Assembly (NCBI GenBank): GCA_023666835.1 | Contig: JAMPBJ010000001.1 | Coordinates: 766,383-830,382, forward strand | Direction of reading: 5' to 3' | DNA: 64,000 bases | From: Bacteroides sp. | GTDB taxonomy: Bacteria > Bacteroidota > Bacteroidia > Bacteroidales > Muribaculaceae | Shown here: one piece after another, positions 3,605 through 52,696 of the stretch | Layout: every line of letters starts with the position of its first letter | Position numbering within the stretch: position 1 is the first letter of the stretch | The notes under the pieces: model-generated | What the model was told of the DNA's origin: nothing | Seen by the model: the letters and a program-made list of their open reading frames with translations, nothing else | The model's database searches: none | Translations under genes and position numbers: made by a program

Positions 3605-3649
3605 CTTATATTTCTTATATGATTTATAAATCGTATAAGTCGTATAGAG
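3605..3649. repeat. Degenerate 9-base tandem repeats, locus 1
   Basis: Five consecutive 9-base units: CTTATATTT, CTTATATGA, TTTATAAAT, CGTATAAGT, CGTATAGAG. All five carry TATA at unit positions 3-6. The array lies directly downstream of the rplI terminator. Related arrays occur at 21672-21707, 31400-31435 and 52670-52696, and 17 bases (TATATGATTTATAAATC) are identical between this locus and the last one. Confidence 0.7.
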
Positions 3650-3657
3650 ATCGTTAT

Positions 3658-3693
3658 AAAAAAAAGAAGCTGTACCTTGTGGGGCACAGCTTC
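3658..3693 (-). terminator. Rho-independent terminator of rpsF-rpsR-rplI
   Basis: Stem GAAGCTGT / ACAGCTTC (3666-3673 and 3686-3693) with a GC-rich inner part. On the minus strand it is followed by a run of eight T (A-run at 3658-3665). It sits 25 bases after the rplI stop. Confidence 0.9.
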
Positions 3694-3717
3694 CGGGAGA
3701 TATATTGATTGGTTGGT

Positions 3718-4161
3718 TTATTCAGCAACGACTTCGAAGGGGATTTCGACCATAACTTCTTTGTGAAGTTTGAGGTTGGCGTTGTAGTTGCCCACTTCTT
3801 TGATGGTCTCTTTCACTTCGATCAGCTTGCGGTCGATGTTGAAGCCGAGTTTTTCGAGAGCTTCAGCAATCTGGATGGCATTGACAGAACCAAAGATTGT
3901 GCCGGTAGAGCTGGTCTTGGCACCGATGGTGAGTTTAACATCCTGGAGTGAAGCGGCGAGGGCTTCAGCGTCGGCTTTAATCTTTGCGAGCTTGTGAGCG
4001 CGCTGGCGCTGGTTTTCGGCGAGCACTTTAAGCGCTGCGGGAGTGGCGATGACGGCTTTGCCGAAGGGGATGAGGTAGTTGCGGCCGTAGCCTGATTTCA
4101 CTTCCACTACGTCGTCCTTGTATCCGAGGTTGGAAACGTCTTCTTTAAGTATAATCTTCAT
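3718..4161 (-). CDS. rplI: Ribosomal protein bL9
   Basis: 147 residues, normal length for L9. The N-terminal RNA-binding part is clear ([37 protein letters not shown]), followed by the long connecting helix (about 45-75) and the C-terminal domain ([17 protein letters not shown]...). It is the last gene of the rpsF-rpsR-rplI operon, 23 bases after rpsR and just before a strong terminator. Component of the large subunit near the L1 stalk. Confidence 0.98.
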
Positions 4162-4184
4162 AATTCCTAAGCGTTTAAAGTGGA

Positions 4185-4448
4185 TTATTTCATCAAGTCA
4201 GTCACATAGGGCAGAAGAGCGAGGTGGCGAGCGCGTTTAACGGCCTGAGCCACGCGGCGCTGGAACTTCAGCGAGGTGCCGGTGATGCGGCGGGGAAGGA
4301 TTTTGCCCTGTTCGTTAAGGAATTTCTTGAGGAATTCGGGATCTTTGTAGTCGATATACTTGATGCCACTGCGTTTGAAGCGGCAGTATTTTTTCTTTTT
4401 TACGTCAACTGACATCGGGGTCAGATAGCGGATTTCAGATTGTGCCAT
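4185..4448 (-). CDS. rpsR: Ribosomal protein bS18
   Basis: 87 residues. Typical S18 sequence: [64 protein letters not shown]. It pairs with S6 on the small-subunit platform. It begins 3 bases after the rpsF stop, so translational coupling is likely. Confidence 0.98.
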
Positions 4449-4451
4449 TGT

Positions 4452-4829
4452 TTAAGCCTCCTTTACTTCTGATTCAACTTCTTCTTTTACAGTCACTTCT
4501 TTTGCGCCTTTGAGGCTGCGACGTTTTGCAGCGTATTCGGCAGCGTATTTGTCGAGACGGAAAGTCAGGAAGCGCAGCACGCGTTCGTCGCGACGGAATG
4601 CGGTTTCGAGCTTTTTAACGAGGGTGGGTTCGCCGTCAAATTCAACGAGGGTGTAGAAGCCTGTTGTTTTTTTCTGGATGGGATAGGCGAGCTTGCGAAG
4701 GCCCCAAAGTTCTTCATTCACGATAGTAGCGCCGTTGTCGGTCAGTACTTTTGTGAATTTTTCTACCGCTTCCTTCATCTGTGCGTCAGACAAAACGGGA
4801 GTTAAAATGAAAACGGTTTCGTACTTCAT
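4452..4829 (-). CDS. rpsF: Ribosomal protein bS6
   Basis: 125 residues. It starts [25 protein letters not shown] and keeps the S6 core ([40 protein letters not shown]), with a Lys/Glu-rich tail as in other Bacteroidales S6. First gene of the operon, behind two promoter-like sites at 4893-4960. Known partner of S18 in 30S assembly. Confidence 0.98.
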
Positions 4830-4892
4830 GTTTGTTATTGATTGATGTTAATAAAGTTAGTGCGATTCGTAATAGTTTTTCGAAAAGCGATG

Positions 4893-4924
4893 CAAAGTTA
4901 CACCTTTTTCAGCTAATATGCAAT
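4893..4924 (-). promoter_or_regulatory. Proximal promoter of the rpsF operon
   Basis: On the minus strand ATTG, 20 bases, TAACTTTG: a near-perfect Bacteroidetes -33/-7 pair. It would give a leader of roughly 60 bases before rpsF. Confidence 0.75.
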
Positions 4925-4930
4925 ATTTCG

Positions 4931-4960
4931 CAAAGATAATTCTCGCTTTTTGATTGCAAA
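4931..4960 (-). promoter_or_regulatory. Distal promoter of the rpsF operon
   Basis: On the minus strand TTTG, 18 bases, TATCTTTG. The spacer is a little short, but both boxes match the consensus. Together with the site at 4893 it makes a tandem promoter, as expected for a ribosomal operon. Confidence 0.6.
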
Positions 4961-5011
4961 CGGTGTATAAGCGGTGTGTAGGCGGCGTGGATGGCGATGA
5001 TTCCTGTAAAG

Positions 5012-5038
5012 AAAAAGTTCCCGGGGTGGCGGGAACTT
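5012..5038 (-). terminator. Rho-independent terminator of the small gene at 5046
   Basis: Perfect 9-base stem AAGTTCCCG / CGGGAACTT with a 6-base loop, followed on the minus strand by TTTTTC. It starts 8 bases after the stop of the 55-codon gene, which supports that gene being transcribed as its own unit. Confidence 0.85.
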
Positions 5039-5045
5039 GTGGGAG

Positions 5046-5213
5046 TCAGTTGAGGATGGTGCCTGACAGAATGGGGGTCATTGATGGCTCGGGGTGGTAC
5101 ACTCGAGCAAACTGCCGCAGGAAGTTGAGTGTGGCCTGCTTGGGGCTTTTTGTTTTGGAGGATTGAGAGGTGTTGCTGTTGGCAGCGAAAGTCGGAGTAG
5201 AAGTTTTAGCCAT
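5046..5213 (-). CDS. Small basic protein of unknown function
   Basis: 55 residues from the ATG at 5213. The start is Ser/Thr/Lys-rich (MAKTSTPTFAANSN), then comes a helical basic core (KQATLNFLRQFARVYHP) and a hydrophobic end (LSGTILN). No signal peptide or known domain. From memory, similar short proteins ending in a LRQFAR-Y motif and a final aliphatic-Asn pair are annotated as hypothetical in Bacteroidales; this is recall, not a search. An in-frame ATG at 5311 would add 33 less regular residues; I prefer 5213 because the core begins there. A strong terminator follows at once. The 5214-5520 gap otherwise holds only the promoter and leader of the sigma gene. Confidence 0.6.
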   Translation of the reverse strand: MAKTSTPTFAANSNTSQSSKTKSPKQATLNFLRQFARVYHPEPSMTPILSGTILN

Positions 5214-5366
5214 AGGCAATGTCGTGTTAGGGTGAGTGATGAATGAGCAGAGAGATAGGGTCGTCTGACCGATACATTTTAATAACGCTACATCGCCCGG
5301 TTTATTATCCATAGATTGATATTTTTGCAAAAAAATAATAAAAATAAATCGGTGTAACCCGACGGT

Positions 5367-5398
5367 GTTGCAACGATGAAAATTATTTCGTAAATTTG
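5367..5398 (+). promoter_or_regulatory. Promoter of the ECF sigma factor gene
   Basis: GTTG (5367-5370), 20 bases, TAAATTTG (5391-5398): a full Bacteroidetes promoter. It implies a 5' leader of about 115 bases before the ATG at 5521. Confidence 0.75.
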
Positions 5399-5520
5399 CA
5401 GTCGCTCCTTGAAACAGGGAGCCGCAGTGTAAATAGTAAAACATCAATTATCAAAACCAATCTTAACTTTATTCTTGCCTATTGATCAGACGTTTACTTT
5501 AACTTTAAAGGCACAGAACA

Positions 5521-6114
5521 ATGCAAATACTTTCTAAGCTGTCCGACGATAAGTTGGTTGCGGCTTATGCTTCCGGGGAGAACCGGGCATTTGACATACT
5601 ATTGAAGCGACACCAGGATCGTGTGTTTTCCTACATACTTTCAATTGTTAAAAACACCGATATCGCAAACGACATATTTCAAGAGACATTCGTCAAGGCC
5701 ATCACTACGATCAAGCAGGGACGATACAGTGAGTCGGGCAAGTTTTCGGCCTGGATCACCCGTATAGCCCACAATCTTGTGATTGACTACTATCGTCAGG
5801 AAAAGAGCGAAAATCTTTGCTCGGCCGACGACGAGGCGGTCAATGTGTTGAACCGCAAGGAGCTGTCGGATGTCAATATTGAGGATGTGATCATCAACGA
5901 TCAGATCCATGACGACGTGCGCCGCTTGGTCGATGCTTTGCCTGACAATCAGCGCGAGGTGTTGATGATGCGCTACTATCGCGACATGTCGTTCAAGGAG
6001 ATTGCCGATGCCACCAAGGTGAGCATCAACACAGCTTTGGGCCGTATGCGCTATGCCATCATCAATATGCGTCGCATTGCCGAGGAAAACAATATCGTAT
6101 TGACAATGTCGTAA
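5521..6114 (+). CDS. ECF-type RNA polymerase sigma factor
   Basis: 197 residues with the two sigma-70 helical regions. Region 2 (about 25-90) includes DIANDIFQETFVKAITTIKQG and FSAWITRIAHNLVIDYYRQEK. Region 4 (about 130-185) includes LPDNQREVLMMRYYRDMSFKEIADATKVSINTALGRMRYAI, a clear helix-turn-helix. No membrane anti-sigma gene is adjacent; instead a prenyl synthase and tatD follow on the same strand with 15- and 22-base gaps. This isolated arrangement resembles the SigW-like housekeeping ECF found across Bacteroidales rather than the SusR/FecI type. The regulon cannot be read from this window. Confidence 0.93.
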   Translation: MQILSKLSDDKLVAAYASGENRAFDILLKRHQDRVFSYILSIVKNTDIANDIFQETFVKAITTIKQGRYSESGKFSAWITRIAHNLVIDYYRQEKSENLCSADDEAVNVLNRKELSDVNIEDVIINDQIHDDVRRLVDALPDNQREVLMMRYYRDMSFKEIADATKVSINTALGRMRYAIINMRRIAEENNIVLTMS

Positions 6115-6129
6115 TCTACCATCGAAGCC

Positions 6130-7095
6130 ATGCACACGATAAGCGAATATCTTGGAACTATCGAGAAACATCTCAAGGAGATCAAATATCCTGAAAATCC
6201 GGCCGGACTTTATGATCCGATAGCCTACACGCTCAATGGTGGTGGCAAACGCCTGCGCCCCATGCTGGTGCTCGCCACGTGTGAAGCTTTCGGTGGCGAT
6301 GTCGACAAAGCCATCAACCAGGCTTTGGCTGTTGAGATGTTTCACAACTTCACGCTTCTGCACGACGACGTGATGGACGATGCCGACATGCGTCGCGGCC
6401 GTCCGACTGTGCACGTCAGATGGGATTCGCGCACGGCTATTCTGTCGGGCGATGCCATGCTGACGCTTTCGGGCATTATTTCCCGGCGTGGATGTACGCT
6501 CGCGCAGGCTGCAGCCGTGGCCGAACTGATGGACCGCACCGCTATGGAGGTGTATGATGGCCAGCAGTACGATATGGACTTCGAGAACCGGGCCGATGTG
6601 ACTGTCGACGACTACATCAACATGATCCGGCTGAAAACTTCTGTGCTTCTGGGTTGTGCATGCCAGCTCGGCGCCGTCATGGCCAATGCTGATCCGGAGC
6701 AATCCCGCGTGATCTATGAGTTCGGTGTAAAACTTGGTCTTGCATTTCAGCTTCGCGATGACTATCTCGACACTTATGGCGACCCCATCATATTCGGCAA
6801 AGAGATTGGAGGCGATATAATCAACGACAAAAAAACGTGGCTGTCGATCACTGCCATGCAGGAAGATGCCGACGGTGTGATGCAACGCGAACTGTCGTCG
6901 CCTTCTGAACCGAAGGAGAAGATTGAGAATGTGCGGGGCGTCTACGATCGTCTTCATCTTGCCGAGCGCTGCCATCAGCTGATCAACCGCTATGTCGATG
7001 AGGCAGTGGCCGAACTCGACAAACTGGAGCTAACTCCGGCCGCCAAAGATTTCTTTGTTCAAATAGCCGAAAATTCCCGCACCCGCACTCATTGA
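6130..7095 (+). CDS. Polyprenyl diphosphate synthase, short-chain type likely
   Basis: 321 residues. All trans-prenyltransferase marks are present: GGKRLRP (38-44), first Asp-rich motif DDVMDDADMRRGRPTVH (from Asp79), and second motif LRDDYLD (about 220). The fifth residue before the first Asp motif is aromatic (Phe74 in HNFTLLHDD), where octaprenyl synthases have a small residue. By family knowledge this blocks chain growth, so a C15-C20 product (FPP or GGPP) is inferred rather than a quinone side chain. It is co-directional with the sigma gene (15-base gap) and tatD, probably one operon. Confidence 0.9.
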   Translation: MHTISEYLGTIEKHLKEIKYPENPAGLYDPIAYTLNGGGKRLRPMLVLATCEAFGGDVDKAINQALAVEMFHNFTLLHDDVMDDADMRRGRPTVHVRWDSRTAILSGDAMLTLSGIISRRGCTLAQAAAVAELMDRTAMEVYDGQQYDMDFENRADVTVDDYINMIRLKTSVLLGCACQLGAVMANADPEQSRVIYEFGVKLGLAFQLRDDYLDTYGDPIIFGKEIGGDIINDKKTWLSITAMQEDADGVMQRELSSPSEPKEKIENVRGVYDRLHLAERCHQLINRYVDEAVAELDKLELTPAAKDFFVQIAENSRTRTH

Positions 7096-7117
7096 GAGTT
7101 CGTCAAATAGCACAGCT

Positions 7118-7894
7118 ATGTTGATCGATACCCATACCCATCTATATCTCGAAGAGTTTGACTGCGACGGCGGTGGAACCGCTGCCGTCGATCGAGCATT
7201 GGCTGCCGGCATCGGCCATATGATCCTTCCAAACGTCGATCTCTCAACCATCGAACCCATGATGGCTTTGCATGAAGCTCGTCCCGAAGTCACGTCCATT
7301 GCCATGGGTTTGCATCCCACCGAGGTGACCGACAATTGGCGTGAAGATCTCGACCGGGTCAGGCAATGGCTTGGCGATGGAAGCGGATTTGTGGCAGTGG
7401 GAGAGATCGGCATCGATCTGTATTGGGATCAAAGCCGGAAAAGGGAACAGATGCAGGCATTCGAGCAGCAGTTGCAGTGGGCTGAGCAGTTGGATCTGCC
7501 GGTGATAATCCATTGTCGCGAGGGATTGAACGAAACCATGGAAGTGCTTGAATCATTTCCCGGGCTCAAAGGCGTGATGCACAGTTTCGGAGGCACGACT
7601 GACGATGTAGAGGCAGTGCGTCGCAAGGTAGATTTTCACTTCGGCGTCAATGGTATCGTGACCTTCAAGAATTCGAGAGTGCGCGACGTGCTTCCGGCCA
7701 TCGGCCTTGACCGGCTGCTACTGGAGACCGACTCGCCCTACCTGGCTCCGGTGCCTTATCGCGGCAAACGCAACGAGAGTGCCTACATGGTGAAAACTGC
7801 CGAGCATATAGCTCAACATCTCAATAAAACAACGGAGGCGATAGCCGTAGCCACCGCCTCCAATGCCGAATCACTGTTCGGTCTCGCTATTTAA
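7118..7894 (+). CDS. tatD: TatD-family metal-dependent DNase
   Basis: 258 residues, the normal length. TIM-barrel amidohydrolase fold with the metal site DTHTHLY at the N-terminus, GEIGIDLYWD (Glu ligand, about residue 93), PVIIHCREG, MHSFGG and LLETDSPYLAPVPYRGKRNES near the C-terminus. Members remove 3' nucleotides from DNA and some process D-aminoacyl-tRNA. Its last 8 bases overlap the convergent gene on the minus strand, so there is no space for a separate terminator. Confidence 0.94.
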   Translation: MLIDTHTHLYLEEFDCDGGGTAAVDRALAAGIGHMILPNVDLSTIEPMMALHEARPEVTSIAMGLHPTEVTDNWREDLDRVRQWLGDGSGFVAVGEIGIDLYWDQSRKREQMQAFEQQLQWAEQLDLPVIIHCREGLNETMEVLESFPGLKGVMHSFGGTTDDVEAVRRKVDFHFGVNGIVTFKNSRVRDVLPAIGLDRLLLETDSPYLAPVPYRGKRNESAYMVKTAEHIAQHLNKTTEAIAVATASNAESLFGLAI

Positions 7895-8693
7895 TGATCT
7901 GATAAAGGTATATTCGATGGGGGTTGCTTGACTCGGATATGAGTTCGGACTTAATTTGCTCTGCTGTGAAGGGCTCATTACTTAAAATCAAAATATAGCC
8001 GCCAAACGGCTTTTCATGGGTGTAGAATTGGCATCCCTTCAGATTTATCTCCTTATCTATGGGCAGGAACACACACTCGGGTAGAAGTGGTTCGACGTCT
8101 TTCGGATCTTTCAAAATAATATTGGCAAACAAGATCATTTCCGTATCATTCTTTATTGAGAAATGATATAGATTGTCGCCGTCATCAATAATGTTGACCG
8201 AGGCATATTTTATACTATCCTGCAAGCTGCCGTCCGGGCCGAGAAGATATGCAAGTGTGGTTATAGCATCAGGAGAATCCATTGATATACGTGATACTCC
8301 GGCCCGATCGAACCGTGTTTTGTCGATCTTGTCAAGAGATAATCCTTGTAGAAGGTTTTTATTGGTTGTTGCGATGCTTGATAGTGTTTTCGATTTGGCA
8401 TCTGTCACAAGTTCCTTAATGGTTTTCCCTTCCGCTCCGGTAGTGGTCCGAAATTTGTAAACCGCTCGCCGATTGTTGTTCTCCACAATCCATATCTCGC
8501 TATTGTTATTTATGCGCAGGCGCGTGTCGCCGTTTAATTTTGAGCCGGGAGCAACTTTGATGGCTTTTGCCCCTGATATTTCACATACAATTCCTTTCAC
8601 CTTAAAGGTGAGAAAGTTTTGGGCTATTGCTGCTGATGTTGTCATAAGCAGCAGAGTGATAGTCGTTATGCATCGTTTTAAAATCGTTATCAT
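7887..8693 (-). CDS. Secreted protein of unknown function, partner of CHASE2 protein
   Basis: 268 residues from the ATG at 8693, chosen because it opens a good signal peptide (MITILKRCITTITLLLMTTSAAIAQ). An upstream in-frame ATG at 8738 would bury it. The mature part begins NFLTFKVKGIVCEISGAKAIKVAPGSKL and has a repeat-like segment RLRINNNSEIWIVENNNRRAVYKFRTTTGAEGKTIKELV, which recalls small beta-rich domains seen in Bacteroidetes secreted proteins associated with caspase-like or CHASE2 genes; I cannot name the family. It follows the CHASE2 gene closely and is probably co-transcribed and periplasmic. Its function is not known. Confidence 0.75.
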   Translation of the reverse strand: MITILKRCITTITLLLMTTSAAIAQNFLTFKVKGIVCEISGAKAIKVAPGSKLNGDTRLRINNNSEIWIVENNNRRAVYKFRTTTGAEGKTIKELVTDAKSKTLSSIATTNKNLLQGLSLDKIDKTRFDRAGVSRISMDSPDAITTLAYLLGPDGSLQDSIKYASVNIIDDGDNLYHFSIKNDTEMILFANIILKDPKDVEPLLPECVFLPIDKEINLKGCQFYTHEKPFGGYILILSNEPFTAEQIKSELISESSNPHRIYLYQIIK

Positions 8694-20434: not shown

Positions 20435-21664
20435 ATGACAAACAGCATTCCTCAATTGATGACTCTCGACAACGGGCTCCGCATCGTGGCCTGTTGCGAT
20501 CCAAATGCCAAAGTCGACTATTTCGGACTGACAGTCGACGCCGGCAGTCGCGATGACGGACCGCGGCGACATGGACTTGCGCATTTCGTGGAGCATACAC
20601 TATTCAAAGGCACTGACAGACGGCGTTCGTGCCATATCATCAACCGCATGGAGGCGTGCGGCGGCGAGCTGAATGCATATACCACCAAGGAGTCGACCAC
20701 CGTTTATTCTGTCTTCCCATCCGGCAATCTGGGGCGTGCCGTGGAGTTGATAGCTGATCTGGTGATCAATTCCCGTTTCCCAAAAAAGGAAATCGACATG
20801 GAGCGTGGCGTGGTGGCCGATGAGATCGACTCCTATCTCGACATTCCTGCCGAAGCTGTCTACGATGATTTTGAAGACCGGTTGTGGGCCGGTTCATCGT
20901 TGGGCCACAATATACTCGGCACTAAAGAAGCTCTTTCTGAATTTGACTCCGCCGTGTGTCGCGATTATCTTCACCGGCTTTATGCGGCCGACAATATGGT
21001 CGTGTTTTACTCAGGCAATCGCCGACCGGCAGAAGTGGAAAGACTGATTTCGCGACATTTTGCCACTCTGCCGCTTAAAGCTCAAAAAATCAACCGCACA
21101 TCGCCTGTCGGCATTGCACCGTTTCAAGACTCCGTGGCTATTTCCAGTCACCAGACTCACACCATCATCGGCACGAGTGTCTGCGACATGTACTCCAATC
21201 GGCGCTACGCGCTGAGTCTTCTCGTCAATATGCTCGGAGGTCCGGGCATGAATTCACTGCTCAACGTCGAACTGCGCGAGAAGCGCGGACTCGTATATTC
21301 CGTTGAAGCAAATGCATCGTTTCTGACTGATACTGGCATCTTCACCGTCTACTACGGATGCGACCCGGAGGATTCCCGGCGCTGCCACCAACTGACCGCC
21401 TCGGTCATCGACCGCCTTGTCAGCACCGCGATAACTTCCCGCCGACTTTCCGCAGCAATCCGCCAATATGTTGGTCAAATGATTGTCAGCACCGACAATC
21501 GTGAGAACATGATCATCGCCCTCGCCAAGCAGCTGCTTTATCGCGGAGGCATAGTGTCGTTTGAAGATACGATCGACCGCATCCGCTCGCTTACCCCCGA
21601 TCAACTCCGCGAAGCCGCAGCCATGATAGCACCCGACGGCCTCTCCACCCTCACCCTCATCTGA
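20435..21664 (+). CDS. M16-family zinc peptidase (pitrilysin/insulinase type)
   Basis: 409 residues from the ATG at 20435; an earlier ATG at 20414 is rejected because it precedes the -7 box. The inverted zinc motif HxxEH is HFVEH (His50, Glu53, His54), and the third ligand Glu is in GVVADEIDSYLDIPAE (about 130). The second M16 half includes LLVNMLGGPGMNSLLNVELREKRGLVYSVEA. No signal peptide, so it is probably cytoplasmic, as with the single-domain processing-peptidase-like members. Substrate unknown. It stands alone, followed by 9-base repeats. Confidence 0.93.
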   Translation: MTNSIPQLMTLDNGLRIVACCDPNAKVDYFGLTVDAGSRDDGPRRHGLAHFVEHTLFKGTDRRRSCHIINRMEACGGELNAYTTKESTTVYSVFPSGNLGRAVELIADLVINSRFPKKEIDMERGVVADEIDSYLDIPAEAVYDDFEDRLWAGSSLGHNILGTKEALSEFDSAVCRDYLHRLYAADNMVVFYSGNRRPAEVERLISRHFATLPLKAQKINRTSPVGIAPFQDSVAISSHQTHTIIGTSVCDMYSNRRYALSLLVNMLGGPGMNSLLNVELREKRGLVYSVEANASFLTDTGIFTVYYGCDPEDSRRCHQLTASVIDRLVSTAITSRRLSAAIRQYVGQMIVSTDNRENMIIALAKQLLYRGGIVSFEDTIDRIRSLTPDQLREAAAMIAPDGLSTLTLI

Positions 21665-21671: not shown

Positions 21672-21707
21672 CATATAAATCATATAAATCTAATAAATCA
21701 TATAAGC
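21672..21707. repeat. Degenerate 9-base tandem repeats, locus 2
   Basis: Four units: CATATAAAT, CATATAAAT, CTAATAAAT, CATATAAGC. Three of four have TATA at positions 3-6. It starts 8 bases after the stop of the M16 peptidase gene. Same 9-base period as the loci near 3605, 31400 and 52670. Confidence 0.7.
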
Positions 21708-21761: not shown

Positions 21762-22772
21762 ATGAAAATCGGCGAAATTGATCTTGGAAAATATCCTGTG
21801 ATGTTGGCGCCCATGGAGGACGTCACCGACCGCTCTTTTCGGCTGATATGTCGGGAGCAGGGTGCCGATATGGTCTATTCCGAGTTTGTGTCGGCCGATG
21901 CATTGATACGCAACATCTCGGCCACAACGCGCAAACTTCAGATAGATCCGGGCGAACGCCCAACTGCCATACAAATCTATGGACGCGAGCCGGAGCCTAT
22001 GGTTGAGGCGGCCAAAATAGTTGAGGAAGCCGACCCTGATGTTATTGATATCAATTTCGGTTGTCCGGTGAAGAAGGTAGCCGGAAAAGGTGCCGGAGCA
22101 GGGCTGCTTCGCGACATCCCCAAAATGATAGAGATCACACGCGCCGTGGTTGCTGCCGTCAAAAAGCCTGTCACAGTTAAGACTCGCCTGGGCTGGGACC
22201 ACAACAGCAAGATCATACCCGAACTGGCCGAGCGTCTGCAGGACTGCGGCATTCAGGCTCTGACCGTTCATGGACGCACACGCTCGCAGATGTATACCGG
22301 CCAAGCTGACTGGGAAATGATAGCTCGTGTGAAGGAGAATCCACGACTGGTAATACCGGTGATCGGCAACGGCGACATTGCCACGCCCGCGCAGGTTCGC
22401 GATGCTTTTATGCACTATGGCGTCGATGGCGTGATGGTGGGTCGTGCATCGATAGGCGCTCCCTGGATTTTCCGCGAACTCAAGGGTGCTGTTGCCGACT
22501 CCGCAACCGCTCCGGCTACGATCGAAGAGAAGTTTGCAATGCTGCGCCGTCAGATCACTGAGAGCATTGACCGCATCGATGAATACCGCGGCATATTGCA
22601 CATCCGCCGCCATCTGGCAGCCTCGCCGCTCTTCAAGGGCATTCCCCATTTTCGCGAAACACGCATCGAGATGCTTCGCGCATCTACTTTCAGCGAACTT
22701 TCCGATGTGCTGGACCGCATACAGTTTGAAATATTGCCGACATTGGACGGCACAACGGATGCTGAATCATAA
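21762..22772 (+). CDS. dus: tRNA-dihydrouridine synthase (DusB-like)
   Basis: 336 residues. FMN TIM-barrel enzyme that reduces uridine in the tRNA D-loop. Visible marks: MLAPMEDVTDRSFR at the start, active-site Cys101 in DINFGCPVKKVAGKGAGAGLL, VKTRLGW, LTVHGRTRSQMYTGQADW, IGNGDI and DGVMVGRASIGAPWIF. The C-terminal helical domain (LRRQITESIDRIDEYRG...) binds tRNA. It is followed after 3 bases by the DUF2807 gene, so the two are probably co-transcribed. Confidence 0.95.
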   Translation: MKIGEIDLGKYPVMLAPMEDVTDRSFRLICREQGADMVYSEFVSADALIRNISATTRKLQIDPGERPTAIQIYGREPEPMVEAAKIVEEADPDVIDINFGCPVKKVAGKGAGAGLLRDIPKMIEITRAVVAAVKKPVTVKTRLGWDHNSKIIPELAERLQDCGIQALTVHGRTRSQMYTGQADWEMIARVKENPRLVIPVIGNGDIATPAQVRDAFMHYGVDGVMVGRASIGAPWIFRELKGAVADSATAPATIEEKFAMLRRQITESIDRIDEYRGILHIRRHLAASPLFKGIPHFRETRIEMLRASTFSELSDVLDRIQFEILPTLDGTTDAES

Positions 22773-31282: not shown

Positions 31283-31354
31283 GCGCCCGTAGTTCAATGG
31301 ATAGAATATCGGATTCCGGTTCCGACGATTGGGGTTCGACTCCCCACGGGCGTA
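31283..31354 (+). tRNA. tRNA-Arg (anticodon CCG)
   Basis: Cloverleaf: acceptor GCGCCCG / CGGGCGT (one G-U), D arm GTTC...GAAT, anticodon stem TCGGA / TCCGA with loop TTCCGGT giving CCG, and T arm GGGG-TTCGACT-CCCC. CCA is not encoded. It reads the CGG codon. Confidence 0.95.
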
Positions 31355-31359
31355 CAAAA

Positions 31360-31390
31360 CGAAAGCGGCTTCCCTCCGAAGCCGCTTTCG
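31360..31390 (+). terminator. Bidirectional hairpin after tRNA-Arg and the kinase gene
   Basis: Perfect 13-base stem (31360-31372 and 31378-31390) with a 5-base loop, 5 bases after the tRNA. It lies between the tRNA and the convergent kinase gene; on the minus strand it is followed by GTTTTG. Confidence 0.85.
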
Positions 31391-31399: not shown

Positions 31400-31435
31400 C
31401 TTATGCGATATATGCGATTTATAAGATTTATATGG
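31400..31435. repeat. Degenerate 9-base tandem repeats, locus 3
   Basis: Four units: CTTATGCGA, TATATGCGA, TTTATAAGA, TTTATATGG, followed by CGCC. It lies between the tRNA-Arg terminator and the 3' end of the kinase gene. The tail TTATATGGCGCC resembles TCTTATGGCGCC at locus 4, also next to a tRNA terminator. Confidence 0.7.
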
Positions 31436-31441: not shown

Positions 31442-33025
31442 TTAGATGGTGTTGGATCTTTTACGGCGTATGGTGCCGGATGAGGTGCCGTCGTCGTTTG
31501 AGCCTGAGCCTGAGCCTGTGGAGCGGCGTATAGTGCCTGTGCCGTTGTCGGAACCTGAACCTGAACCTGAGCCGCTGATGCGCGATGCTTTGTCGGTTGC
31601 GGCCGGGCTATAGGAGGGAGTGGTGGTGCTCGGAGTTGGTTTTGATGCGGTCGGTGTGGTGGTCTTTTTGGGTTTCGCTTTAGGTTTTGGCGCAGGTGCC
31701 GGAGCAGCAACAGGCTCGGGCGCAATTGCAGGAACTGAATCTACAGCAATTGCTGTGTCAGCCTCTTCAACCACTTCCTCAACCATGATTTCTTCCCATG
31801 CAGAGTCGGCTATGGAGTCGGCCTCTACCGAGTCATTACCTTTTCCATTGCCTAAGATGAAATAGAGGCATGCACCGATTATGGCAAGAACCAAAATGGT
31901 GAGAATTATGATCAGGAGCACAAGGTTGGTCTTTTTCTTCTTAGGCTCTTTTCCCGGTTCTTTCTTGGGATCAGGGACAGGCGAAAGAGGAGTGGGATCA
32001 ATAATGGTGGTATTGGACGATTGAACGTCGGCAATGGAGGAGTTGATGATCATCGTGTGATCATCGTCGGAGGTGCCGTAGCCCGGATTGAATGCAGGGC
32101 GGTTCATGATGTCGATCACCTGATTGAGTTGCGACAGCATCACTCCGGCATTGGGGGTGCGATCGTTGACATGGGTCGCAAGAGCGCCCATGAGCCATGA
32201 CCGGAATGCGGGTGTGATGTTTTGCGGGAGCATGGCGAGAATTGTGGCCGGTTGAAGCCCAATGGCCTTAGGCAGTACTTTGCCGGTGAGGCAGAAGACG
32301 ATTGTGGCAGCCAAAGAATACACGTCGCTGGCCGGTGAAAATGTTGATATGCCGGCATATTGCTCTTCGGGAGCAAAGCCGTCGGTGTAGCCGTGGACGT
32401 TGATTGTCGATGTGGCGGAGCCATCGTCGTTGTAGTGCTTCGAAAGCCCGAAGTCGATGAGCACCGGACGTTCGTTGCCAGCAGTATCGACTGCCAGCAT
32501 GATGTTGGCCGGCTTGATGTCGAGGTGGGTTATGTTGCTGCGGTGAAGAAAAGCCACTGCGTCGATGATCGGTTTTATCATGCCGATCGTGGTCTTTTCG
32601 TCAAGCGGACCGTGTTGTTTGATATATTCTTCAAGGGTTTGTCCCTGAAGATGTTCCATGACGTAGTAGGCGGTGTTGTTGGCTTCGAATACTTCGTTGA
32701 CACAGACTATATTGGGATGCTGACCGGAGATATCTCTCAATCGCTGAGCTTCGCGTATGAAGTCCTTGCGGGCTTTGTCGACTCTGTCGGTCGACGGAAC
32801 GGAGTAGCTGACGGCATGGGTGTCAGAGCGTTCGAAATCAGATTTGAGAAACATCTCCTTGATAGCCACTGTCACGCGATAGGTCAGATTGCCGAGTTTG
32901 ACATCGGTCAGAGCCGTATAGGTGATTCCGAAACCTCCCGAACCTATCATTTTGTCGATGGTGTAGACATGGTCATTGGATTGAAGGTTGAATCCTTTGG
33001 GGAGAAATTGATCGTTGTTTGCCAT
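31442..33025 (-). CDS. Transmembrane Ser/Thr protein kinase
   Basis: 527 residues from the ATG at 33025 (MANNDQFLPKGF); the frame extends to 33139 but that part overlaps trkH. Kinase domain about 20-300: glycine loop GSGGFGITY (28-36), ATP Lys56 in VAIKE, catalytic HLDIKPAN (Asp169, Lys171), DFG at 191-193, FAPE at 218-220. One membrane helix at about 367-391 follows a KKK stop. The outside part is acidic, then Pro/Ala/Lys-rich, then Ser-Gly repeats with GTIRR twice at the end. HLD in place of HRD marks it as a non-RD kinase. It lacks PASTA repeats. It is last in a run with dxs, trkA and trkH, suggesting a link with potassium uptake. Confidence 0.93.
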   Translation of the reverse strand: MANNDQFLPKGFNLQSNDHVYTIDKMIGSGGFGITYTALTDVKLGNLTYRVTVAIKEMFLKSDFERSDTHAVSYSVPSTDRVDKARKDFIREAQRLRDISGQHPNIVCVNEVFEANNTAYYVMEHLQGQTLEEYIKQHGPLDEKTTIGMIKPIIDAVAFLHRSNITHLDIKPANIMLAVDTAGNERPVLIDFGLSKHYNDDGSATSTINVHGYTDGFAPEEQYAGISTFSPASDVYSLAATIVFCLTGKVLPKAIGLQPATILAMLPQNITPAFRSWLMGALATHVNDRTPNAGVMLSQLNQVIDIMNRPAFNPGYGTSDDDHTMIINSSIADVQSSNTTIIDPTPLSPVPDPKKEPGKEPKKKKTNLVLLIIILTILVLAIIGACLYFILGNGKGNDSVEADSIADSAWEEIMVEEVVEEADTAIAVDSVPAIAPEPVAAPAPAPKPKAKPKKTTTPTASKPTPSTTTPSYSPAATDKASRISGSGSGSGSDNGTGTIRRSTGSGSGSNDDGTSSGTIRRKRSNTI

Positions 33026-44926: not shown

Positions 44927-44974
44927 AAACCAGGCCCATAAACCCGCAGGCACGATTTCTGTCTTTAATTTGAA

Positions 44975-45186
44975 ATGCGGCAGGTATTCTGACTTATTCC
45001 TTCACCGCAAGCGCCTTCCCAATTGTTAATTATGAAAATCAGTGGCGTGATGCTTTCGGTTTACCGGTCAGCATAGACCGGACGGAAATTACAGCAGCGG
45101 GTACTGTCGGGGATTCTCACCCCGTTCCCTCTTGAAGATCCAGATGTAAGGGCCGACTCTTCGCGCCCATGGATCTACCGCTTTCG
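44975..45186 (-). ncRNA. Cobalamin riboswitch
   Basis: On the minus strand the conserved parts occur in order: GGGAACGGGGTGAGAATCCC, then CAGTACCCGCTGCTGTAA, a variable hairpin (CCGGTCTATGCTGACCGG), AATTGGGAAGGCGCTTGCGG, and the B12 box AAGTCAGAATACCTGCC (44980-44996 region). These match the cobalamin aptamer closely. It begins a few bases after a consensus promoter and lies upstream of four cobamide-uptake genes, which it should switch off when B12 is plentiful. Confidence 0.96.
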
Positions 45187-47545: not shown

Positions 47546-47559
47546 CTTAAAAATCGCAA

Positions 47560-47614: not shown

Positions 47615-47998
47615 TCAGTCGACGAGTGCATAGCAGAGGGTGAAGCCGTCGTAGTCGATATAGAGTCGCGTATACCCGTCTTTGTGAATGCGGATGCGGA
47701 TGTTGCATGGGTCGCCATCCGAGTCGACGCAACGATTGGAGAAGATTTTACCTTTACTGTCCTCAACCACTTCACCGTAGTTTTTGACACGGAAAGTGAG
47801 GTTGCCTACTTTGATGATGTCGGTATTGTAATTCAAAATGACGTAAGTGTCGTAAACTTTTTCCCAGTCTGTCCATTCGTCGGACCCATCAACAGAATAG
47901 GATACGTCGGTGGCGCGGTAGGTGACTATGTTGCTGTCGGCTTTCGTTACGGCTACTACAAACAGGCTGAAGAGGATAAATGAAAGAAGTCTTTTCAT
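47615..47998 (-). CDS. Small secreted protein of unknown function
   Basis: 127 residues. Signal peptide MKRLLSFILFSLFVVAVTKADS. The mature part of about 105 residues looks beta-rich: VTYRATDVSYSVDGSDEWTDWEKVYDTYVILNYNTDIIKVGNLTFRVKNYGEV and a Cys pair in VDSDGDPCNIRIRIHKDGYTRLYIDYDGFTLCYALVD. No family recognised. It follows the DUF4838 gene by 25 bases and precedes a strong terminator, so it is the last gene of that operon and probably periplasmic. Confidence 0.8.
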   Translation of the reverse strand: MKRLLSFILFSLFVVAVTKADSNIVTYRATDVSYSVDGSDEWTDWEKVYDTYVILNYNTDIIKVGNLTFRVKNYGEVVEDSKGKIFSNRCVDSDGDPCNIRIRIHKDGYTRLYIDYDGFTLCYALVD

Positions 47999-48023
47999 GA
48001 GTTTCTGATTTTGATGAGGTTGA

Positions 48024-50219
48024 TTATTCTACTGTGATTTCGTCGAGGAAGAACCAGCATGGGTTGCCAACGCCGTAGTGCCAGCCGGGGCATTGCTTGG
48101 TGCCTTCGACTGATACCTTGATGTATTTGGCCGCGGTTGGGGCGTCGAATTGCTCCTTGACGCTGACAAATTTCACTTTGGGGTCGCGGTCTTCGGCAAG
48201 TTCGTGGCGGGGAAGTGTGGTCCATGTGGTGCCGTCGGTACTGATGGAGTAGGTGACCGATTTGGGTTGCAGGATCCACGATCCGAGCTGCTGAAGGAAG
48301 TCGGTGTCGATCGAACGGATTTCCTTGACGGAGCCCAGATCTACGGTCATGTCCACGTCAATACCTTCCCATCCTATCCAGCTGTCCTTGTAGGTGGTGC
48401 CACCGAAAAGTCCGTCGGTGAGCGAGGGTGCTCCGAGTCGGTCGTAGGGAGCCGACAGGGGTGTAGAGAAGGTGATGTCGGCGCCGGCTGCGAGGTTTTT
48501 GGTGTCGCGAGGCAGGTAGCGCTGTCGATAGAGTGACACATATTCGTGGGGCGTATTGTTGCGTTCGTTCAGTGAGGCAAGGCCGAAGCGGGCGGTGCGT
48601 GTGTCGAATGTGTCGAGCATCTCGCTGATACGGGCCGGATTTTTGTTGGGGTTGGATCGTTCGATCTCGAGTTCGCTGTATTGGAGCGACAATCGTGAGC
48701 GCTGCACTCTGGCAAGCAGGGCCGAGTCGGCAGCCACGGCTTGCTCGGCGCGGTCAAAGAGATCGTTGTAGTGCATGCGCATCTGCTCGTTGAGCATGCC
48801 GTCTTTGTGGGTCAACGGCGAGTCGTAGATCCAAAGCGGTGTGCGGCTGCCCAGCAAGGCGCCTTCCATGAGTTTGAGATATTGCTGCATGTAGGGGGCG
48901 GCTGCTCCGTAGTAACCGTTGAGGAAGGTGTTGGTCAGTGAGTCGACGTCGGCATCGGGATTCCACATCAATTTGGATATGAGCCAGGTGCGAAGTTCCG
49001 ACATGTCGCCTCCTCGATAGCCGGCAATTTGCGAGAAGTGCATCTTGACGTTATTGTCGCGGAACGTCTGTATGTTGGGTTGGATCACGTGGAAGTTGGG
49101 AAACGGCGTGGTGGTGCCGTCGAAGTTGATGCCGTAGTCCCACACGAATATGTTGTCGGAGATCTTTGCCCAGCCTTCGAGTGCGCTTAGGAAGTCGCGA
49201 CCCGAGGTGTTGTATTGCATGGGCACTTCGCGGTAGCAGTCGATCGAGCAAAGCATTATGTTGACGTTGGGGCGAGGCTTCACGTGTTTGGGCGGATGCA
49301 TGGTGTAGAGATAGGCAAGTGTTGAGAACTGCTTGTCGGGGAATCTGTCGGCCAGGCGGTTGAGGAAGTGAATGATGGTGCCGGATGGTGAGCCTTCCAC
49401 TGAGTCGATGGCCATACAGGTCTCGCAGCGACAGTTGGTGTAATTGCCGTCGTTTTGGCTGACGGATATCATGTTGAGTCCGGGATTAGCTTTGAACACG
49501 GAGTCGACCTGTTGGCATACGATCTCAAACACTTCGTCGTTGGTCAGACACCATTGGCCGGCCTGCCCGGGGTGGCGTGCGCCGTCGAACCAGGCATAAT
49601 ATTCGGGATGCGACTCCCCGTAGCGTGCTGCCGGCAGCAAGCGGTTGAAAGTGTGCACCCAGTATCCGCCGGCAAATTCGTCGGTCGGCTCTTCGAGGCG
49701 CATCCACTGCCGGTAGATCGGGTCGGTGCGGAGTGCGTAGTTCTGGCTCTGGCGATAGCGAAAGGCGGGATTGTCGATGCGGTCGATGCGAGGCAGAGCG
49801 ATTGTGGCCTGCTTCGGAGCGCTGAAGTCGAATTCACTCCAGTAGTTGCATCCGAGATAGTCTTCAAGTAGGGTAACAACACCATAGACTGCACCGCCGC
49901 GGTCGCGGCTCTCAATCGTGAGCCAACCGGGAAGGGTCGACAGCTTGAAGCCGTCCTCTTTGATAGCCTTGTTGTCGGACAGACTGAACACCACATCGCC
50001 TTTGCGTGGCGCGACTTTGCCTGTCACTACGGGCAACTTGACGTTGGCGATGCGCTCCACAAAGTCTTGTAGCAGCGTGGCTCCGGGTTGTTGGATGGTG
50101 TCGGTGCAGATGATGCGACCGGCGGCGCGGTGGTTCTTGACGATGGTTGCCTGACCCAGTGCACAGGCTATGGTGACAAGTGCAGCGGCAAGAAGTGTCA
50201 GTCGTTTCATGATATTCAT
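48024..50219 (-). CDS. Secreted DUF4838 protein with C-terminal discoidin-like domain
   Basis: 731 residues, signal peptide MKRLTLLAAALVTIACALGQ (from Met4). An N-terminal glycosidase-associated alpha/beta domain (about 30-130; TLLQDFVERIANVKLPVV, YGVVTLLEDYLGCNYW) is followed by the DUF4838 core, a TIM-barrel-like region (WVHTFNRLLP, AWFDGARHPGQAGQWCLTNDEVFEIV, VSQNDGNYTNCRCETCMAID, PNVNIMLCSIDCYREVP, VWDYGINFDG). The C-terminal 150 residues form an F5/8 type C (carbohydrate-binding) domain with PSLTDGLFGGTTYKDSWIGWEG and MTVDLGSVKEI. It probably acts on a glycan; the enzyme activity of this family is not established. Confidence 0.88.
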   Translation of the reverse strand: MNIMKRLTLLAAALVTIACALGQATIVKNHRAAGRIICTDTIQQPGATLLQDFVERIANVKLPVVTGKVAPRKGDVVFSLSDNKAIKEDGFKLSTLPGWLTIESRDRGGAVYGVVTLLEDYLGCNYWSEFDFSAPKQATIALPRIDRIDNPAFRYRQSQNYALRTDPIYRQWMRLEEPTDEFAGGYWVHTFNRLLPAARYGESHPEYYAWFDGARHPGQAGQWCLTNDEVFEIVCQQVDSVFKANPGLNMISVSQNDGNYTNCRCETCMAIDSVEGSPSGTIIHFLNRLADRFPDKQFSTLAYLYTMHPPKHVKPRPNVNIMLCSIDCYREVPMQYNTSGRDFLSALEGWAKISDNIFVWDYGINFDGTTTPFPNFHVIQPNIQTFRDNNVKMHFSQIAGYRGGDMSELRTWLISKLMWNPDADVDSLTNTFLNGYYGAAAPYMQQYLKLMEGALLGSRTPLWIYDSPLTHKDGMLNEQMRMHYNDLFDRAEQAVAADSALLARVQRSRLSLQYSELEIERSNPNKNPARISEMLDTFDTRTARFGLASLNERNNTPHEYVSLYRQRYLPRDTKNLAAGADITFSTPLSAPYDRLGAPSLTDGLFGGTTYKDSWIGWEGIDVDMTVDLGSVKEIRSIDTDFLQQLGSWILQPKSVTYSISTDGTTWTTLPRHELAEDRDPKVKFVSVKEQFDAPTAAKYIKVSVEGTKQCPGWHYGVGNPCWFFLDEITVE

Positions 50220-50228
50220 GATGAAGGA

Positions 50229-50654
50229 TTATTTTTGCATGTATTTGGTGAGAATGTTGATCATACGCGTTTGATACTTTTGTTGTATGATCTGCTGAAT
50301 TGCCGTTGCCATTGCCGAACTGTACTTGGCAAATTTTCGACCCGCAGGTGAGGCATAGAACTGATTGATGGCCTTCAGGTCGGCAAGTGTGAAATACTTA
50401 CGGTATTCAGCTGTGAGATCCTTGACAAGATCCGGCCATATATCATCGACTACTTCTTTGGCGGCTGCTTCGCAGTTGAAAGGAAGATTCATGTTTTTCC
50501 ATGTCGAAGCAATCATATTGGCTTTGGTGTTAGAAGTTTCAAGCACCTTGTAGACTTCGGTTGCATAGCCGTCGGATTGTGCTGACTGAGCCATGCAGCA
50601 CACAGGCGCCATGGCAAGAATCAAAAGGATGATGACGTGTTGGATTCGTTTCAT
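50229..50654 (-). CDS. Secreted DUF2059 protein
   Basis: 141 residues with signal peptide MKRIQHVIILLILAMAPVCCMAQ. The mature part is helical; the DUF2059 core is about 70-135: VKDLTAEYRKYFTLADLKAINQFYASPAGRKFAKYSSAMATAIQQI, where FYxSPxGRK is the family hallmark. Function unknown. First gene of a three-gene operon behind a perfect promoter and divergent from typA. Confidence 0.88.
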   Translation of the reverse strand: MKRIQHVIILLILAMAPVCCMAQSAQSDGYATEVYKVLETSNTKANMIASTWKNMNLPFNCEAAAKEVVDDIWPDLVKDLTAEYRKYFTLADLKAINQFYASPAGRKFAKYSSAMATAIQQIIQQKYQTRMINILTKYMQK

Positions 50655-50669
50655 GGTGTTATTTTCTTA

Positions 50670-50701
50670 CAAAGATAGTGAATGTTGTGTGAAAAATCAA
50701 A
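50670..50701 (-). promoter_or_regulatory. Promoter of DUF2059-DUF4838 operon
   Basis: TTTG, exactly 20 bases, TATCTTTG on the minus strand, 16 bases before the DUF2059 start. Confidence 0.82.
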
Positions 50702-50761
50702 TTGCTTCCACGTGGTGAAAAATTACTTCGGCTAATGGAACCGTATTTCAGGAATAATGGC

Positions 50762-50769
50762 TATCTTTG
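50762..50769 (+). promoter_or_regulatory. -7 box of typA
   Basis: TATCTTTG, 22 bases before the ATG at 50792. It lies within the longer reading frame that opens at 50702 and so rules that start out. The -33 box is weak. Confidence 0.6.
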
Positions 50770-50791
50770 CACCTTGAAAAATAGAAAGGCT

Positions 50792-52591
50792 ATGCAGAAT
50801 ATCCGAAATATTGCAATCATTGCACACGTCGACCACGGCAAAACGACTCTCGTCGACAAGATGCTCCTGGCCGGTAACCTCTTCCGCGACAATCAAAACG
50901 CCGGTGAACTCATTCTTGACAACAATGACCTTGAACGCGAACGCGGCATAACGATTCTTTCGAAAAACGTGTCGATCAACTACAAGGGCTACAAGATAAA
51001 CATCATCGACACCCCGGGACACGCTGATTTCGGCGGCGAGGTGGAGCGTGTGCTCAATATGGCCGACGGATGTCTGCTGCTGGTCGATGCTTTCGAAGGT
51101 CCGATGCCTCAGACGCGTTTCGTGCTTCAGAAAGCCATTCAGATGGGGCTGAAGCCTGTGGTGGTGATCAACAAGGTTGATAAGCCCAACTGCCGCCCCG
51201 ACGAGGTGCAGGAGATGGTGTTCGACCTGATGTTCAATCTCGATGCCACCGAGGAGCAGCTCGATTTCCCCACCGTCTACGGTTCGGCGAAACAGGGCTG
51301 GATGAGTCTCGACTGGAACAAACCGACCGACAATATCACGGCCGTGCTCGACACTATCATTGAACACATACCCGCACCGGTCACGCTTGAAGGTCCGGCC
51401 CAGATGCTGATCACGTCGCTCGACTATTCATCGTATGTTGGCCGAATCGCCGTTGGTCGTGTGCACCGCGGCGAATTGCGCGAAGGTCAGGATGTGGCCG
51501 TCATCAAAAAGGATGGCACCATCGATCGCCAACGCATCAAGGAGCTTCACGTGTTTGAGGGAATGAGCCGCCGCCGCGTCGACTCTGTCAAGAGCGGCGA
51601 CATCTGTGCTCTCGTAGGAATTGCCAACTTCGAAATCGGCGACACTGTGGCCGACATCGACACCCCCGAAGCTCTGCCGCGCATAGCCATCGACGAACCC
51701 ACGATGTCGATGACATTTACCATCAACGACTCGCCCTTCTTCGGTCGCGACGGCAAATACGTCACTTCGCGTCATATCGGCGACCGCCTCACCCGCGAAC
51801 TCGACCGCAACCTGGCGCTGAGAGTCGAAAAAGCTCCCGAGGACGATGTGTGGACCGTGTTTGGCCGCGGTGTGCTCCACCTGTCTGTGCTCATCGAGAC
51901 CATGCGTCGCGAGGGATATGAACTTCAGGTAGGCCAGCCCCAGGTGATCGTCAAAGAGATCGACGGCGTGAAATGCGAACCTGTCGAGATGATGACCATC
52001 AACGTGCCCGAAGAATATGCGTCGAAAATGATCGATATGGTCACTCGCCGCAAGGGTGAGCTCATCTCAATGCTCACGCAGAACGATCGCGTCAACATGG
52101 AATTCTTCATCCCCTCACGCGGTATCATTGGCCTGCGCAACAATGTGTTGACCGCCTCGGCAGGCGAAGCTATTATGGCTCATCGATTCCACGAATACCA
52201 GCCTTGGAAAGGTGATATTGAACGCCGTACAAACGGCTCGCTCATAGCCATGGAAGCCGGTACGGCTTATGCCTATGCCATCGACAAACTTCAGGATCGC
52301 GGCCGCTTCTTCATCTTCCCCCAAGAGGAAGTGTATGCCGGACAGGTGGTTGGCGAAAACGCCAAGGACAACGATATTGTGGTCAACGTGACTAAATCGA
52401 AGAAGCTCACCAATATGCGAGCATCTGGCGCCGACGACAAGGCACGCATCATTCCGCCGGTAGTATTCTCGCTTGAAGAAGCGCTGGAATACATCAAGGA
52501 GGACGAATATGTGGAAGTAACGCCCCATCACCTGCGCCTTCGCAAAATCATCCTCGATGAACTCGAGCGCAAGCGCGCAAACAAATCCTGA
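50792..52591 (+). CDS. typA: Translational GTPase TypA/BipA
   Basis: 599 residues from the ATG at 50792 ([28 protein letters not shown]). G motifs: P-loop AHVDHGKT, switch [33 protein letters not shown]-like domains III and V and the unique C-terminal domain follow (YEPQ-type [51 protein letters not shown]). It binds ribosomes and aids 50S assembly and stress responses. Single gene with its own terminator. Confidence 0.97.
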
Positions 52592-52613
52592 CTTCAAAAT
52601 AATCAGATACCTG

Positions 52614-52651
52614 GCGGGCAGGGAGCGGCGATTGAGTCGACCCCTGCCCGC
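52614..52651 (+). terminator. Hairpin terminator of typA
   Basis: Perfect 10-base stem GCGGGCAGGG / CCCTGCCCGC with an 18-base loop, followed by TCTCCTATAATAT. It starts 22 bases after the typA stop. Confidence 0.75.
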
Positions 52652-52669
52652 TCTCCTATAATATGACAA

Positions 52670-52696
52670 CATATATGATTTATAAATCTTATGGCG
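52670..52696. repeat. Degenerate 9-base tandem repeats, locus 4
   Basis: Three units: CATATATGA, TTTATAAAT, CTTATGGCG, between the typA and tRNA-His terminators. It shares 17 identical bases with locus 1 and the TTATGGCGCC-like tail with locus 3. Confidence 0.68.

Follow-up and report, generated by a model that had tools for sequence, protein, structure and literature searches.

The window analysed here, a stretch of 64,000 nucleotides from Bacteroides sp. of the Muribaculaceae (assembly GCA_023666835.1, contig JAMPBJ010000001.1, positions 766,383 to 830,382), contains four short arrays of a degenerate 9-bp unit with a TATA core. They belong to a dispersed family of tandem repeats that occurs in large excess over chance, lies predominantly near gene 3' ends, and recurs in genomes recorded under several phylum names. 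The unit is subject to constraint on particular letters, a result that is supported, being clear in Chlorobaculum and weaker in the window genome, and that is compatible with a bound protein. We tentatively favor, at somewhat less than even confidence, the view that the arrays are DNA-level 3'-end elements composed of sites for a small two-fold symmetric DNA-binding protein.

The excess was measured in a sample of the window's genome (G000; 1.79 Mb, 79% complete) consisting of the window and another 400 kb of its contig, 464 kb and 255 gaps in all; genes were called by our own simple codon-usage caller, so that gap types are approximate throughout. With an array defined as a run of at least three units, of which two or more match TATA exactly and none has more than one mismatch to it, the 255 gaps contain 17 arrays of period 9, compared with a mean of 0.23 and a maximum of 2 in 40 dinucleotide shuffles, and the same count at periods 6-8 and 10-15 gives 0-3. 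Exact TATA pairs in the 400 kb show the same pitch: 34 at spacing 9, 22 at spacing 18, and 13 at spacing 27, with 7 at spacing 8 and 5 at spacing 10. A triple-TATA pattern matches 72 times in the whole window genome (4 times when reversed) and 93 times in a Chlorobaculum genome (G154). The shuffles, the spacing counts, and the reversed-pattern control rule out chance and AT-richness, and strongly bear out the dispersed 9-base family proposed in the preliminary description; the excess persists both against shuffled gaps and in the full genome, so that neither refutes the proposal. Its argument from a near-helical repeat is not supported. The helical repeat of DNA is about 10.5 bp, and at a pitch of 9 bp successive TATA boxes come to lie on different faces of the DNA.

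The unit itself is a near-palindrome, about TATA-ARTC-N (mostly AATC) in the window genome and about TATA-RGTC-N (that is, TATA-n-GWC-n) in Chlorobaculum, in either orientation; one array is common to G154 and NZ_SDGU01000042.1. The TATA core described earlier stands, occupying exactly positions 3-6 in 12 of the 16 window units (by reading), but the near-palindromic form, the conserved second half (ARTC or GWC), and the mixed orientations had been overlooked. The 5-base linkers between TATA boxes in G154 are mostly RGTCN or its reverse complement. Of the 97 linkers in G154 arrays of at least four units, 88 were orientable; orienting itself fixes T and C. All 88 have G at the unselected base before TC, 79 have A or G at the first base, and the last base is free (C43 T22 G15 A8). 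Thus TATA and GWC are kept while the last base varies, and the G154 unit has eight informative positions and one spacer. In the window genome 40 of 46 linkers are orientable, most often as AATCN, with A13 T12 G13 C2 at the last base. A search for TATARRNYY x3 + TATA in GTDB species genomes matched at least 111 stretches, of which the 80 listed are used throughout and the other 31 only in an added check of unit type and placement; 393 of 544 linkers in the 80 loci are orientable.

Circularity was avoided by a reciprocal test, in which arrays were picked by GWC at 9 bp alone and the TATA columns were left unselected. Three GWC at this pitch were found 32 times in G154 gaps, against a mean of 0.4 in eight shuffles and 0-2 at periods 6-8 and 10-13. 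Across the 96 units of the arrays so picked, conservation in the TATA columns is 81, 88, 88, and 78%, whereas the commonest base reaches only 56% and 38% in the two flanking columns. Selection on GWC therefore recovers TATA, while the flanking columns are freer, which indicates a constraint on particular letters and not on AT content. In the window genome, selection on ARTC x2 gave 25 cases at period 9 versus 3-9 at other periods. No covariation is seen between the bases flanking TATA (P 0.23 for G154 and 0.58 for the GTDB loci). This speaks for recognition as a site rather than for pairing, and hairpin pairing is thereby ruled out as the source of the constraint. Moreover, unit identity in G154 is nearly the same within arrays (3.19 of 5) as between them (3.08), so that the likeness of units there reflects more than recent local copying.

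The placement of the arrays was assessed by gap type and by distance, with gaps over 2 kb left out. The 59 gap arrays of the 80 GTDB loci fall into 23 convergent and 36 tandem gaps and into no divergent gap, where 8.4 would be expected by length (P 1e-4). The corresponding numbers are 9, 20, and 0 for the 29 gap arrays of the other 31 stretches, 10, 13, and 1 for the 24 arrays of G154, and 2, 3, and 1 for the six arrays of an array-rich congener of the window genome (G118). Of the 61 arrays in tandem gaps, 45 are on the upstream gene's side of the gap midpoint, toward its stop codon (P 1.3e-4). In G154, gap positions more than 120 bp from any start codon fall within arrays in 529 of 10,393 cases where a gene 3' end lies up to 120 bp away, and in 0 of 14,550 where it is more distant; a similar fall is seen in the window genome and the GTDB loci. 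Since this fall is present even with no start codon near, promoter avoidance alone is insufficient to explain it; long gaps may hide unannotated genes, which makes the far zone the weaker part of the distance result. The association with gene 3' ends is strongly supported by the gap-type counts and the distance test.

The relation of the arrays to terminators was compared at two loci. At rplI, where 95 family loci matched and the best 30 gave 29 readable ones (G118 was outside that draw), an array is present in 1 of the 29, the window genome itself, and most of the others have a terminator-like hairpin as judged by eye. In one Chlorobaculum gap the array directly follows a T-run, which relatives keep without an array. 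The possibility that the array is itself an intrinsic terminator (hairpin plus T-run) is ruled out at these two loci, by eye.

The family proved to be wide but patchy in occurrence, and its relatives contain other units of like architecture, neither of which the preliminary description had noticed. Heterogeneous GWC arrays are present in 48 of the 80 listed stretches and in 22 of the other 31, among the matches listed. By record title, the 48 include Bacteroidales (Prevotella, Barnesiella, Alistipes, Tidjanibacter, Muribaculaceae, and others) as well as Chlorobi, Cloacimonadota, Nitrospira, Aminicenantes, Planctomycetaceae, Lentisphaerae, Puniceicoccales, Opitutaceae, and Portnoybacteria. Most of the 48 are metagenome bins, so that single cases may be contamination; several bins have at least two array contigs. 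A stricter pattern of purines and pyrimidines, ATRRRNYYY x3 + AT, matches 30 of 395 phylum genomes, at least 27 of them in the family of G154 (f18), and its reversed control matches one. In the window's order it matches 12 of 393 genomes and the reversed control 18, with up to 83 matches; because the control is found in more genomes and several cases are ATAAAGTTC-like, the pattern is not specific to the TATA/GWC unit there. Three genomes of this order (G571, G576, and G579) have tandem arrays of a fairly uniform ATAAAGTTC-like unit in several places. The six of the 18 control genomes that were inspected (G792, G563, G722, G799, G616, and G857; loci among L336-L349) contain tandem TACTTRRAG-like 9-bp arrays, which constitute a second near-palindromic 9-bp family with other letters. 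In addition, 15 viral stretches match TATARRNYY x3 + TATA, mostly as uniform repeats of other units; GWC-type linkers account for 1 of the 55 tabulated, and three stretches (L164, L165, and L175) are uniform TATAAATCC repeats, which spell the unit of the window genome. Phage-borne spread may have taken place: GWC units are essentially absent from the viral matches, and the three TATAAATCC repeats keep this reading open.

The arrays are lineage-specific and turn over fast. In five orthologous Chlorobaculum gaps, an array in relatives was scored by any of a TATA array, GWC x3 at 9 bp, or lag-9 periodicity, and was found in 7 of 19, 4 of 10, 3 of 14, 6 of 9, and 5 of 11 distinct gap sequences; those lacking TATA are of other flavors, namely CATAAGTCC, TGGGACNNN, and ATCNGWCNG (by reading). 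Seven-base arrays (GATAATG, GAATTAT, ATCAACT, and ATTATCC types) were observed in the same or orthologous gaps (L261, L268, L285, L286, L297, L314, and L315). A motif-free scan detected lag 9 in 36 scan windows of G154 gaps versus 0.2, and in other Chlorobaculum loci lag 7 in 22 versus 0.4 and lag 9 in 18 versus 0.2; for G000 and G118 the baselines were high at all lags and real equaled shuffled, probably due to runs of N. At least ten triple-TATA matches, and at least three times the control, occur in 12 of 119 family genomes, and most others are near control. G000 and G118, as far as sampled, share 33 pairs of adjacent genes, none with an array on either side. A dispersed repeat of about 75 bp, present in many copies across Chlorobaculum genomes (L221 9335-9413, G154), is apparently unrelated to the arrays.

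Array structure and folding differ among the genomes. Compared with order-shuffled arrays, neighboring units show raised likeness in G154 (P 0.01) and the GTDB loci (P<0.001), but not significantly so in the window genome (P 0.24). Unit identity in the GTDB loci, where the arrays come from different species, is 3.76 within arrays versus 2.48 between them, and G118 contains an 18-bp higher-order repeat. Whole-array palindromic order was found in G154 (3.81 of 5 versus 3.24; P<0.001) and in neither the window genome nor the GTDB loci (P 0.46 and 0.57). On folding, the G154 arrays have a median z of -6.7, with 24 of 26 below -2; in the window genome 10 of 18 are below -2, and the median is -5.2 kcal/mol.

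In the reading that we tentatively prefer, each 9-bp unit would be the site of a small two-fold symmetric DNA-binding protein or topoisomerase, which may line up along the array at one step per 9 bp. The protein-filled array might then mark or insulate the boundary of a transcription unit, with slippage and hairpin-mediated copying supplying and remodeling the arrays and protein binding keeping the letters of the unit. What suggests this reading is the combination of letter constraint with one free base, the 9-bp pitch, both orientations, the lack of covariation, and the place outside terminators at gene ends. A more general version, that the arrays represent a widespread unnamed class of boundary elements with 9-bp palindromic sites in lineage-specific letters (TATA/GWC, GTAC-centered, and others), located just outside terminators and held by an undescribed cooperative sequence-specific protein, appears rather unlikely to us.

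A number of observations weigh against protein-site arrays. Although the four window arrays all lie past a gene 3' end or terminator (hairpins judged by eye), as the preliminary description had stated, this does not extend to the genome sample, where the 17 arrays comprise 5 convergent, 9 tandem, and 3 divergent cases (4.5 divergent expected), so that the arrays show no avoidance of divergent gaps. Arrays also occur near start codons (at 422 of 20,827 G154 positions within 120 bp of one), because many gaps are short. The coding sequence of G154 likewise contains GWC at the 9-bp pitch, in 40 arrays. On the reciprocal test, the TATA columns are conserved at only 47-58% in other Chlorobaculum loci (18 arrays, 43 units) and at 52-65% in the window genome. 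Taken together, the orthologous gap sequences carry a 9-bp array in 25 of 63 cases, only 9 of them with TATA units. Triple-TATA counts in the window's genus are 72, 39, 6, 3, 2, 2, 1, and 0, the low ones near control, and such erratic counts within one genus would be odd for a host function. The homogeneous runs and the likeness of adjacent units in the GTDB loci point to plain slippage in many genomes. Finally, no binding protein was identified, and no search for one was made.

Some of these points speak for non-functional minisatellites, in which a self-complementary 9-mer would slip or switch templates via hairpins near hairpin-rich gene ends and then drift and be lost with no function for the host. 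We consider protein-site arrays slightly likelier than this sequence-selective but functionless process, to which we likewise give less than an even chance. The process would account for the erratic presence within one genus, the single array among the readable rplI loci, the quick turnover at orthologous gaps, the likeness of adjacent units and the higher within-array identity in the GTDB loci, the higher-order repeat in G118, and the whole-array palindromes and strong folds of G154. It also fits the sharing of gaps with 7-bp arrays and other 9-bp flavors, the second family of like architecture with another core, and the uniform 9-bp repeats of viral contigs, three of them TATAAATCC. However, neutral drift should randomize all nine columns, whereas G154 keeps TATA and GWC and lets two spacers vary; nor would drift by itself be expected to give the sharp drop beyond 120 bp from the 3' end or a similar unit under several phylum names.

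Three further explanations seem less probable, in descending order. Arrays could act in RNA, as terminators or as 3'-end stabilizers that form transcript-end hairpins, in line with their placement and with the strong folds and palindromic order in G154 (and the 10 of 18 window-genome arrays with z below -2), but we regard this as improbable: relatives have rplI hairpins and a Chlorobaculum T-run without any array, the window-genome folds are weak and lack whole-array palindromy, bases facing each other across TATA do not covary, and some flanks are T-rich and then A-rich, the wrong order for an intrinsic terminator, while others reverse (by reading). Spread as a REP-type mobile element by a Y1 (RAYT/IS200-like) transposase is very improbable. 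Y1_Tnp was detected in 8 of 9 array-rich versus 3 of 9 array-poor chosen genomes (P 0.05), but none was seen in the window genome at its 79% completeness, and no TATA array was found at 12 Y1 loci (12 of the 29 matches above the Pfam cut-off), two of which show another 9-bp periodicity. Near array ends, the tags of REP elements show no clear enrichment, with 0 GTAG/CTAC and 3 CGTC/GACG at the 26 arrays of G154 versus about 1.8 at random gap positions, and 0 at the 18 arrays of G000; flanking duplications are likewise lacking. By unit size, tags, duplications, and Y1 loci, the arrays are not members of the REP/RAYT class. The least credible alternative is that regularly spaced YC in the nascent RNA past the stop codon serve as Rho-utilization sites: some orthologous Chlorobaculum arrays are C-rich on the sense strand (by reading), and G000 arrays in tandem gaps have C>G in 7 cases and G>C in 2, but there is no consistent sense-strand skew (20 versus 12 in the GTDB loci and 3 versus 7 in G154).

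The four window arrays, all confirmed at the coordinates first given, and their neighbors are collected in Table 1. Arrays 1 and 4 have a 17-base word in common, including a perfect 12-base palindrome; as it occurs in three places of the 464 kb, it reflects the shared unit and not a special kinship of these loci. In the window, an array (31402-31432 and 52672-52693) lies 46-48 bp beyond the 3' end of each of the two tRNA genes. A nearby array was found at 2 of 8 tRNAs in the 464-kb sample of G000 (0.12 expected; both in the window), at 1 of 8 in G118, and at 0 of 8 in G154. GGCGCC directly follows arrays 3 and 4, which on a rough reckoning we regard as coincidence. Curated Rfam covariance models at gathering score gave no match at the arrays in the window, only the two tRNAs and a cobalamin riboswitch (44973-45185, minus strand). 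The kinase-like gene at 31442-33025 contains hexamer repeats (TGAGCC and GAACCT) at 31499-31570.

Table 1. Window arrays, as first delimited, with adjacent genes and hairpins.
Feature	Coordinates	Strand	Remarks
Array 1	3605..3649		five 9-bp units; TATA chain from 3598; beyond the rplI hairpin
Terminator-like hairpin and T-run past rplI	3666..3693	-	array 1 just outside; by eye
rplI, ribosomal protein L9	3718..4161	-	3' end toward array 1; Pfam PF03948/PF01281
M16 peptidase gene, upstream of array 2	20459..21664	+	Pfam PF00675
Array 2	21672..21707		four units; 7 bases past the M16 peptidase stop codon
Dihydrouridine synthase gene, downstream of array 2	21762..22772	+	Pfam PF01207
tRNA-Arg(ccg)	31283..31355	+	3' end 46 bp before array 3
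GC hairpin (terminator-like), between tRNA-Arg and array 3	31362..31388	+	by eye
Array 3	31400..31435		four units; beyond the tRNA-Arg hairpin; 6 bp from the 3' end of the opposite-strand kinase-like gene
Kinase-like gene	31442-33025	opposite to tRNA-Arg	3' end toward array 3
BipA/TypA gene	50792..52591	+	3' end toward array 4; Pfam BipA_C
Hairpin past the BipA gene	52615..52650	+	by eye
Array 4	52670..52696		three units; between the BipA and tRNA-His hairpins
Hairpin past tRNA-His, other side of array 4	52704..52739	-	by eye
tRNA-His(gtg)	52741..52817	-	array 4 lies 48 bp beyond the 3' end

The nature of gene-end repeats of the REP/BIME type has long been debated, with selfish DNA, RNA stabilizers, and topological sites all proposed. 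The 9-bp family is placed like REP elements and has a very short unit whose grammar is fixed. It is found under several phylum names and with at least one differently spelled counterpart, and in some species, such as those represented by G000 and G154, it is common enough to be tested. If a protein does hold the unit, the arrays would represent a boundary system absent from the searchable literature (most subscription papers were outside the scope of our searches); if there is none, they provide a clear example of a minisatellite process that is sequence-selective and linked to the ends of transcripts. Besides, such arrays could mislead the prediction of promoters and binding sites.

Among known systems, REP elements, known from E. 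coli and from the tagged families, are palindromes of 20-40 bp whose main families carry GTAG or CGTC tags, the GTAG ones being often linked to RAYT (PMC3733652). Like the 9-bp arrays, REP and BIME elements are described there as dispersed, intergenic, palindromic, and multicopy, mostly downstream of genes in convergent or unidirectional gaps (PMC3733652), and our data show such placement strongly in the GTDB loci and G154 and weakly in the window genome. Binding of gyrase, IHF, or DNA polymerase I is another mark of REP/BIME elements. Cleavage by gyrase at BIME-2 repeats offers a precedent for a topological role (PMC6379681). The 9-bp arrays are built differently, of a short tandem unit and with no tagged hairpin of 20-40 bp. 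They are thus REP/BIME-like in placement, but not in construction.

The STRR heptamers of cyanobacteria are dispersed tandem repeats of a short fixed unit with scattered phylogeny. The same features characterize the "long simple sequence repeats" of Mrazek et al. (2007), as cited in PMC4679880. The TAACTGA heptamers occur in Beggiatoaceae, Cyanobacteria, and five Bacteroidetes, and in the main genome of that report mostly lie just upstream of start codons; they resemble the 9-bp arrays as short, tandem, intergenic units of erratic, cross-phylum occurrence, for which the author saw no mechanism of transfer (PMC4679880). By contrast, TAACTGA is a fixed unit of 7 bp, while the 9-bp arrays are near-palindromic, degenerate, and mostly past stop codons (PMC4679880 for the heptamer). 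Our arrays have the tandem copies at a fixed period that mark all three of these kinds, and lack near-perfect unit identity: in G154 and G000 the free columns differ greatly from unit to unit and certain others are kept, although homogeneous runs occur in some other genomes. BrickBuilt of Porphyromonas gingivalis, likewise a dispersed tandem repeat in a Bacteroidales genome, is presented in PMC4596501 as a 23-nt unit within a MITE that has a leader, a tail, and terminal inverted repeats; the 9-bp arrays differ in having no flanking duplications. Words shared by array flanks are no longer than at random, which speaks against a MITE or transposon remnant with target-site duplications, with no search aimed at terminal inverted repeats. 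The 18-nt REP-like palindrome of Caldithrix abyssi is also high-copy, intergenic, and probably downstream of genes, but is single and not a 9-bp tandem (PMC5317091). Our literature searches, by literal sequence and by topic and within the scope given above, returned such related kinds only and no description of this family, in agreement with the preliminary remark that it had no name. Adjacent short palindromic operator sites in tandem are known from the met boxes bound by MetJ. These sites are of similar length and offer a working analogy for cooperative binding, with the difference that the 9-bp arrays lie mostly away from promoters.

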